NCBI GenBank assembly: GCA_946617225.1
Contig: CAMOJW010000004.1
Span: forward strand, 1 to 35,472
Length of the DNA stretch: 35,472 nucleotides
Direction: 5' to 3'
Source: an uncultured Lachnospiraceae bacterium
Lineage (GTDB): Bacteria; Bacillota; Clostridia; Lachnospirales; Lachnospiraceae
Of the stretch, positions 6,087 through 8,539 are shown piece after piece. The translations under genes were made by a program, and so were the position numbers. The notes under the pieces were generated by a model. That model did not search any database and had not been told where the DNA came from. It was given only the letters and a program-made list of their open reading frames with translations. Numbering within the stretch: position 1 is the stretch's first letter; each line of letters starts with the position of its first letter.

Positions 6087-6668
6087 TCACGGCAGCTTCT
6101 CTTCCGAATAGTAGGGAACGATCAGAGTATCCCCGGGATGGATCTTCAAACTGGTCATGTCCTCCTGATAGGTGAGGTTGTTGATAGAGCAGACCTCACG
6201 GAGATAATCCTTCATGTCCGGATAATGGACCGCATCGGCATACTGGGCGGCATAGTCCATAAAGTCCTCTCCATAGGCCACCGTGATATCCGTGTAATAC
6301 TTGTAATCCTCTGCTGCCTCGACTGCTGCAGCATGAGAATACAGGCCCGCGGAAAACAGAGAGCAGCACAGAAGGATGCCCAGAACGGCCAGACGGATCA
6401 CTGCAGAGCGAGGGAACAGAACGGTCTGAACAGCAGCCGTGCGGGACACTCTCCCGGCAGCTGCTGTGTAAGCAGACACAGTGCGTCTGACTGTCCTGCG
6501 GGCTGCATCGGCCTGAGCTGCGGCGGTGTTCGCAAGATTCCTGCGGGCTGCGGCTGTATCGATCACTGTATATCTCCTCCTGCGGGCTGCAGGCGCGGAA
6601 TGAGCGGCAGCTGTTGCGGCTCCGGCAGTTCGATTTATATTGATCACCTGAATACTATGTGCGTACAT
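6087..6668 (-). CDS. YneA-like SOS cell-division suppressor: membrane protein with divergent LysM-like C-terminus
   Basis: ORF 6087..6689; preferred start ATG at 6668 (MYAHSIQ) preceded by GGGAGGT. One TM segment (LAVLGILLCCSLFSAGLYSHAAA); C-terminal DYLREVCSINNLTYQEDMTSLKIHPGDTLIVPYY resembles LysM; divergent from lexA as in Bacillus lexA-yneA. Confidence 0.75.
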   Translation of the reverse strand: MYAHSIQVININRTAGAATAAAHSAPAARRRRYTVIDTAAARRNLANTAAAQADAARRTVRRTVSAYTAAAGRVSRTAAVQTVLFPRSAVIRLAVLGILLCCSLFSAGLYSHAAAVEAAEDYKYYTDITVAYGEDFMDYAAQYADAVHYPDMKDYLREVCSINNLTYQEDMTSLKIHPGDTLIVPYYSEEKLP

Positions 6669-6696
6669 ATCGTACCTCCCAACTGTCAAAACAGGA

Positions 6697-6866: not shown

Positions 6867-7478
6867 ATGGCACGAATCACCCCCAAGCAGGAACAGATCC
6901 TGGAATATATCAAGAAAGAGATCTTAGAGAAGGGTTACCCGCCGACGGTGCGTGAGATCTGCGAGACTGTTCATCTCAAATCCACCTCTTCCGTTCACTC
7001 CCACCTCAATTCCCTGGAGCGCAACGGTTTCATCCGCCGCGATCCCACCAAACCGCGCGCCATCGAGATCTGCGACGACAGCTTCCAGATGGTCCGCACG
7101 GAGATGACCTCTCTTCCCATCGTCGGCAGGGTGGCTGCCGGCGAACCGATCCTCGCTCAGGAGAACATCGAGGAGTATTTCCCAGTACCGGCTGAGCTGG
7201 TCCCTTCGGGTGAGTCCTACGCCCTGCGCGTCCACGGTGAATCCATGATCAACGCCGGTATCATGGACGGCGATCTCGTCATGGTCAATTCCGTCAACAC
7301 CGCCTCCAATGGCGACATGGTCGTAGCCCTGGTTGACGATTCCGCCACAGTGAAGACTTTCTACAAGGAGAAGGATCACATCCGTCTGCAGCCCGAGAAC
7401 GACAATATGGATCCCATCATCGTCGACAACTGCATCATCCTAGGGAAGGTCTGGGCTGTGTTCAGGTATCTGAGGTAA
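6867..7478 (+). CDS. lexA: LexA repressor (SOS regulator)
   Basis: MARITPKQEQILEYIKKEILEKGYPPTVREICETVHLKSTSSVHSHLNSLERNGFI... HTH plus S24 peptidase domain (VHGESMINAGIMDGDLV). Confidence 0.98.
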   Translation: MARITPKQEQILEYIKKEILEKGYPPTVREICETVHLKSTSSVHSHLNSLERNGFIRRDPTKPRAIEICDDSFQMVRTEMTSLPIVGRVAAGEPILAQENIEEYFPVPAELVPSGESYALRVHGESMINAGIMDGDLVMVNSVNTASNGDMVVALVDDSATVKTFYKEKDHIRLQPENDNMDPIIVDNCIILGKVWAVFRYLR

Positions 7479-7490
7479 ATGATTGTGATG

Positions 7491-7520
7491 AAAGCCGTGC
7501 CGGGAGGGCACGGCTTTTTT
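7491..7520 (+). terminator. lexA Rho-independent terminator
   Basis: AAGCCGTGCC GGGA GGGCACGGCTTTTTT. Confidence 0.9.
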
Positions 7521-7602
7521 AATGTTGCGAAATCTTTTTTTATGCGGCCCTGAGAGCGGATCTTACCACAGCTTTGTCTTATATCCGGTTTTGTCCGGTG
7601 AA

Positions 7603-7997
7603 ATAAGCCCAACTCCTGTTTCCGCTTTTCGGGGCTTACTACCTTTCCTGCAATGTAAGCCGTGGGCAGGAAATAGCGACTCGAGGCTTACGGCTATTCC
7701 GGAGATATAAGCTCGAACCCTGATAATCTGCGCGTGGGCTTATTACTCCTTTGACTCAAATAAGCTCAAGGCTATTATCTACCCCTTGAGGCTTATGTGC
7801 CCGTAAGCCCCCAAAGGGGATTATCCCTTCCAGGCTTATCGTCACGAATATCCTGTAAGCTCTAAAGGCTATCTCGCATCCGCTGGGCTTACTATCACCA
7901 AAAGTCTATAAGCCCAGAAGAGGAACCTTGCGCTTGCGGGCTTATCTTCTCAAGAAATATGTAAGCCCGGAAGACGGTTCCCCGCTTCCAGGCTTAC
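7603..7997. repeat. Phased inverted-motif array: 8 x [RTAAGCYY - ~20 nt - RRGCTTAY], period 52-53 bp (one 43-bp unit)
   Basis: Forward TAAGC motifs start at 7604, 7656, 7708, 7761, 7804, 7856, 7909, 7962; reverse (A/G)GGCTTA motifs start at 7632, 7684, 7736, 7789, 7832, 7885, 7938, 7990. Coordinates counted directly; intervening sequence is not conserved. Confidence 0.95.
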
Positions 7998-8084
7998 CCC
8001 TGATCGTCGTCACAGTTGATGATCATTGTTATAGTTGTTTCTGTCGTGATATTTTCCCTATTTCACGGCAGAATTAACGTTCTC

Positions 8085-8102
8085 CGGCCTCGTCAGAGGC
8101 CG
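8085..8102. terminator. Hairpin downstream of rsfS (possible terminator, weak T-tract)
   Basis: CGGCCTC GTCA GAGGCCG. Confidence 0.45.
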
Positions 8103-8115
8103 AGCTGCGTCAGGA

Positions 8116-8481
8116 TCAGAATTCAGAAGGATCGACCATCCGGCCGTCGCGCCAGATGCGCTCGAGGTCGTAGAGGAGACGGTTCTGGGCGTCGAAGACG
8201 TGGACGATGATGTCGCCAAAATCGAGTAGTACCCAGCCGGCGGCGTCGTAGCCTTCCGTCTGGCGGATGGGGCAGCCTGCCTTCTCCACGGCTTCCGTGA
8301 CGGCGTCTGCGAGAGCCTGGATCTGGGGTACGTTGTTGCCGCCCGCGATGATCATGTAATCGGCGAGGACGGAGACACCGCTGATGTCGATGACGCGGAT
8401 GTCGACGGCTTTTTTGTCTTCCAGGGCCTCAATGGCGATCTTCACAAGTCTGTTCGAATTGTTTAATTCCTGTGTGCTCAT
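8116..8481 (-). CDS. rsfS: Ribosome silencing factor RsfS (Iojap/YbeB family)
   Basis: MSTQELNNSNRLVKIAIEALEDKKAVDIRVIDISGVSVLADYMIIAGGNN...YDAAGWVLLDFGDIIVHVF; start at 8481 preferred (GGAG upstream) over the ORF-track 8532. Confidence 0.95.
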   Translation of the reverse strand: MSTQELNNSNRLVKIAIEALEDKKAVDIRVIDISGVSVLADYMIIAGGNNVPQIQALADAVTEAVEKAGCPIRQTEGYDAAGWVLLDFGDIIVHVFDAQNRLLYDLERIWRDGRMVDPSEF

Positions 8482-8539
8482 ATTCGTCTCCATTTCTTGA
8501 CGTTGTCTGTTGTCACGCAGCTGTCCGGTCATCTGAAGT

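Follow-up and report, generated by a model that had tools for sequence, protein, structure and literature searches.

The window analysed here is the whole 35,472-nt stretch of contig CAMOJW010000004.1, from an uncultured Lachnospiraceae bacterium (assembly GCA_946617225.1). Within it, lexA (6867–7478, forward strand), with a terminator at 7490–7518, and rsfS (8116–8532, reverse strand) converge on an intergenic region that carries an array of short inverted sites (7603–7997). As a preliminary description of this DNA had proposed, the array is non-coding, situated between the terminator of lexA and the 3′ end of rsfS (8116). Its left flank (7543–7602, forward strand; tgcggccctgagagcggatc...tccggtgaa) is common to other copies of the array, with BLAST matches to locus L067 and also to L064 and L071. 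The right flank of the element (7998–8113, forward strand) is cut off at the rsfS stop, and comprises a partial unit of a 61-bp repeat (8030–8088) and the opening part of a terminal hairpin module (8084–8113). Divergent from lexA is a small ORF (6087–6689, reverse strand) that has a LysM-like end and may encode a YneA-type inhibitor of cell division in the SOS response.

The array is of the TAAGCC type and contains 16 half-sites, RTAAGCY (F) and RGCTTAY (R) in strict alternation, which make up eight units, each an inverted pair of 7-bp half-sites 37–38 bp long. The positions of all 16 sites and their unbroken alternation had been recognized in the preliminary description, and the alternating spacing rule given there (28–29 bp F-to-R, 24–25 bp R-to-F and one step of 15 bp) also stands, although its offsets change when distances are taken between the starts of the 7-mers: F-to-R is then 30–31 bp and R-to-F 22–23 bp, except for one 13-bp step (7790 to 7803). 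The unit period is accordingly 52–53 bp, or about five turns of DNA, with a single exception of 43 bp (7760 to 7803), or about four turns. This short step (GGCTTATGTGCCCGTAAGCC, 7790–7809), one helical turn below the other linkers, forms the centre of the array, with four units on either side. In 2,000 dinucleotide-preserving shuffles of 7479–8115 the mean number of sites was 0.9 and the longest phased chain never exceeded 2 sites, as against the 16 observed. Comparable ordered sets in shuffled sequence, like random spacing in related regions, had been named beforehand as grounds for regarding the array as coincidental; neither was found, the spacing in related arrays being likewise non-random.

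Across the arrays overall, the F-to-R distance is constant at 29–32 bp, and 240 of 248 R-to-F steps fall at 12–14, 21–24 or 31–33 bp, so that the values of 13, about 22 and 32 bp change by about one helical turn. The linkers are pyrimidine-rich when read towards the centre from both sides and their polarity flips at the central step, both in the home genome (p=4e-17, an optimistic value because paralogous copies are not independent) and in the independent genome of the sister species UBA3863 (p=1e-4). Among units only the 7-bp cores are conserved. The earlier view that the intervening sequence is unconserved holds between units but not between paralogous arrays elsewhere in the genome, where the spacers match unit for unit. 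In four such arrays the site cores are 1–6% divergent and the spacers 21–30% (core versus spacer, p=2e-6), and the gaps within the arrays span either a complete 52-bp unit or just a few bases (1, 2 and 8 bp). Duplication and deletion by exactly one 52-bp unit, together with the recently duplicated units contained in the arrays of UBA3863, would be expected of a former tandem 52-bp repeat decaying neutrally, with the 7-bp core surviving by chance. Such decay is scarcely credible, however, given that divergence in the cores is some 4- to 16-fold lower than in the spacers, with almost no indels, and that the same geometry returns with unrelated words (see below).

The inverted half-sites could also be read as a structured RNA or a DNA cruciform, with a hairpin in each unit or the whole array folded about its centre, and a structured RNA was one of two possibilities raised in the preliminary description. 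In several arrays the folding energies are lower than after spacer shuffling that preserves the sites (z from -0.2 to -5.2) and, taken by themselves, look structured, but the covariation and self-complementarity tests were unsupportive. Unit interiors have no excess self-complementarity (0.271, versus 0.276 between different units), nor are the two halves of an array mutually complementary (0.347 matched, 0.384 unmatched). The degenerate end bases of the half-sites lack pairing covariation in UBA3863; in the home genome one degenerate end position does pair above expectation (75 observed, 60 expected; z=3.3), an excess explicable by common ancestry of the paralogous units, and the end combinations A..C and G..T occur frequently either way round. 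Changes of about 10 bp in spacer length suit helical phase and not hairpins, and an Rfam scan of the array region gave no match at E<=10. Folding is therefore considered very unlikely, and the structured-RNA proposal is not supported. Spacing, core conservation, the pairing tests and linker polarity instead point to sites for protein on duplex DNA. The second possibility raised at the outset, a protein-binding platform, is favoured by the helical phasing, the site-specific conservation, the lack of supporting covariation and the recurrence of arrays mainly at convergent junctions.

The array is also dispersed, which the preliminary description had not covered. A genome-wide search with the F–R unit pattern gave 68 matches, compared with 0 for a reversed-pattern control, and the fetched loci of the home genome contain 168 units of two types, TAAGCC and a sister type, TAGGCC. 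Complete arrays in this genome typically have 8 units in 393–395 bp with the short step at the centre, and 15 such centres were counted (0 with the control pattern). Copies are found on many contigs, with common flanks and with unit-specific spacers in the same order. TAAGCC arrays form mosaics with the RTAGGCC/GGCCTAY array, the 61-bp repeats and a terminal three-hairpin module, of which the home genome has at least 40 copies and the nine other genomes searched have none. The module is seen at L063:4427–4552 and L061:5342–6107 as well as in the window, and numerous contigs terminate at it, close to it or within arrays. The 61-bp tandem repeats, which have inverted words of their own, also accompany arrays at L066:5171–5473 and L073:727–967.

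The gap between lexA and rsfS, 637 bp here, is 64 bp and free of any array in UBA3863, the closest relative examined, whose LexA is 95% identical to that of the home genome; in most other relatives it is 73–162 bp. In a scan of 85,462 genomes, one per species, multi-site arrays were confined to a few genomes of Lachnospiraceae, the remaining matches being single and at chance expectation. Triple-site matches numbered 138 in the home genome, 42 in UBA3863, 31 in G494, 18 in G496 and 7 in G495. Similarity searches of phage and plasmid DNA gave no match, and a pattern scan of viral contigs gave single chance matches only. Arrays occur at the 3′ end of hpaB (L072, L092) in two species, G000 and UBA3863, but the array sequences there do not align with each other, and the same two may have a second co-location at a DUF1667 gene.

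The genes next to arrays have metabolic, transport and enzymatic functions, are unrelated to one another and turn their 3′ ends to the array. This orientation holds for 25 of 28 flanking genes, and of 10 junctions with both genes called, 8 are convergent, counts that are approximate since the gene calls are ORF-based and only partly supported by Pfam. These genes were rejected as array-specific, being ordinary and mutually unrelated, and no defence-type genes were seen among those examined. The recurrence at convergent junctions, which the preliminary description had suggested checking, is consistent with an unrelated chromosomal DNA-binding protein whose arrays organise the nucleoid or insulate convergent genes, whether as a domain boundary or as a roadblock to bidirectional transcription and replication, the nuclease adjacency described below being incidental. 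The dyad symmetry of the array and the purifying selection on sites in dispersed copies also suit such a role. It is nevertheless judged unlikely, because the arrays are patchy (apart from the home genome, one chance match scored among 397 family genomes surveyed) and are missing from the same junction in the sister species.

In UBA3863 (L096) and Tb.RUG.154 (L171) an unannotated protein is encoded beside arrays, and it turned out to belong to a multi-copy family; in UBA3863 its gene (L096:1219–2028) adjoins a TAAGCC array. A motif-blind scan around homologues, with a strict exact-6-mer test, identified arrays at 18 of 58 loci (12 of 29, then 6 of a further 29), compared with 4 of 204 controls (Fisher, p=6e-10), the controls comprising 166 random pieces (3 positive) and 38 same-genus loci (1 positive, itself an array). 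The association persists when two genes first met through arrays are left out (p=2e-9) and against the same-genus controls alone (p=9e-4). The other 40 homologue loci, negative by the strict test, may have decayed or degenerate arrays, or none. In most cases the array starts no more than about 120 bp away from the gene, and the 3′ side is the commoner one.

About a dozen recognition words are found beside homologues, including TCGACA, and several genomes have more than one: GCACTA, AAGCGA and CGTTTA in G041, TAGACA and TGACAA in UBA3863, and CCCGTA and GCAGTA in G495, with CACCGC in the home genome. In most of these families F-to-R is 28–31 bp, and the linkers of 12–13, 21–24, 32–35 and 50 bp again differ by steps of about 10 bp. 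Two of the words in G041 (GCACTA and AAGCGA) were found both adjoining a homologue and dispersed in the genome. G046 has 48 dispersed units of the word TGACCA, including one array within its own lexA–rsfS junction (L217/L361, 1047–1444), where the period is 80 bp. This variation of words, seen from species to species and among the paralogues of a single genome, and an adjacency to the nuclease family far above controls likewise speak against a nucleoid or insulator protein unrelated to that family.

Most same-genus species with homologues are without RTARGCC arrays. The home genome has two homologues, C28, the closest to the L096 protein (46% identity), which is without an array, and C5, which has a CACCGC array of 61-bp period; the period of the 61-bp repeats resembles that of the CACCGC array adjoining the homologue in L346. 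No homologue was found beside a TAAGCC or TAGGCC array in the home genome, a result that is not decisive since this genome is 79% complete and breaks at arrays.

The array-associated protein is a stand-alone protein of about 270 aa, in which the motifs RSKSE, PDF and EH show little or no variation across homologues (E163, P196-D197-F198 and H213 invariant, E212 nearly invariant). In its predicted model (pLDDT 82, pTM 0.53) an N-terminal helix precedes a three-stranded sheet and a long helix, after which comes an alpha-beta core whose elements are ordered as in PD-(D/E)XK nucleases. Matches to PDB folds are weak (best E=0.086), with Exonuclease 5 and MunI among the top ones. Over its C-terminal region of about 115 residues the protein is similar to the C-terminus of PDC-S68, a candidate for phage defence (E=1.6e-19). 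The family is predicted to be nuclease-like, of PD-(D/E)XK type. Mean identity between paralogues falls from 45% across the C-terminal nuclease part to 24% over the N-terminal part, a contrast of the sort expected if a fast-evolving N-terminal domain sets the recognition word, as we infer from these sequences.

Since PD-(D/E)XK domains also occur in defence proteins such as PDC-S68, the adjacency of gene and array could reflect regulation or defence and not spread. The protein might be an anti-phage or anti-plasmid device, a nuclease held on chromosomal arrays (by self-marking or sequestration) and freed or activated by foreign DNA, and besides the match to PDC-S68 it can be cited for this that the same domain caps RecD-like helicases in viral contigs. 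These contigs (L367–L374) encode large RecD-like helicases with the nuclease domain at the C-terminus, the PDC-S68 arrangement. The homology is confined to the C-terminal part, however, no defence-type neighbours were seen beside arrays, and tens of dispersed copies free of cargo fit spreading better, so that defence is held to be quite improbable. Our protein resembles PDC-S68, a RecD-like helicase with a C-terminal nuclease, in its homologous nuclease domain but differs in lacking the helicase, in its N-terminal domain and in having an adjacent array.

Among known systems, REP elements are short inverted motifs that alternate in orientation and are dispersed extragenically near gene 3′ ends, in species-specific families in which the gene for the RAYT enzyme adjoins its own repeat family (PMC3733652). 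The arrays are like REP/BIME elements with RAYTs in their short inverted motifs of alternating orientation, in forming species-specific families, in being dispersed, extragenic and mainly at 3′ ends or convergent junctions, and in the putative enzyme gene that adjoins its own repeats. Unlike those elements they have no conserved REP hairpin, no base-paired stem and no GTAG/CGTC tag on a stem, and consist instead of 7-bp sites at a constant, helically phased spacing; the candidate partner is of PD-(D/E)XK type and not a Y1 transposase. A RAYT/Y1 transposase was considered as partner and rejected, as Y1_Tnp (PF01797) is uncorrelated with arrays: none is present in the array carriers G494 and G495 and the home genome has only a contig-end fragment, whereas many array-free relatives have several.

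The sopC partition centromere of plasmid F consists of 43-bp repeats with an inverted site. The arrays are likewise tandem, phased inverted sites for a DNA-binding protein (here putative), but they are chromosomal, at tens of loci, with no ParA or ParB neighbour seen and with spacers free to vary. Integron attC arrays have 7-bp inverted boxes, and the arrays similarly repeat such boxes at tens of bp; in contrast to attC they have no cassettes or ORFs, their box sequence is different and their sites appear to act as duplex without a folding constraint. There are no identical direct repeats with unique spacers as in CRISPR, a class the preliminary description had correctly set aside, the sites alternating in orientation around a repeat core of only 7 bp. 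In a comparison with transposons and MITEs, which are bounded by terminal inverted repeats and target-site duplications, the copies were seen to have flanks in common and the sister species to have the junction empty, but neither a target-site duplication nor a precise end of insertion was identified.

On balance we lean, with modest confidence, towards a paralogue-specific protein that binds its own phased array, the arrays being copied into mostly convergent intergenic regions. The array would be duplex DNA for many copies of one sequence-specific protein, with roughly a whole number of helical turns from unit to unit and with two half-arrays of opposite polarity joining at a unique centre. 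The best candidate for binding is the array-associated PD-(D/E)XK-type family, in which the N-terminal helix, three-stranded sheet and long helix may read the half-site ahead of the conserved nuclease core, each paralogue having its own recognition word and its own array beside its gene. The protein would cut DNA and drive the copying of arrays elsewhere, mostly into intergenic regions between convergent genes, the route probably being cleavage with copy-repair, a spread that may be likened to that of REP elements with RAYT transposases but would use a different enzyme class.

No description of these arrays was found in the open-licence literature, and we put at roughly even the chance that they represent an undescribed Lachnospiraceae system, selfish or host-serving, in which any host benefit is conjectural and nuclease paralogues, each evolving a word of its own by way of the fast-changing N-terminal domain, spread phased arrays of it along the chromosome. 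If so, the arrays would account for the poor assembly of these genomes at convergent junctions and would offer a dense, phased DNA scaffold for engineering, and the recruitment of mobile arrays as insulators of convergent genes would become directly testable. Specificity that differs between paralogues would supply a large natural set of proteins matched to DNA words, in which the evolution of recognition could be studied. A nuclease-like family with long arrays of its own sites would then constitute a second, unrelated bacterial solution to the problem solved by REP elements and RAYTs.
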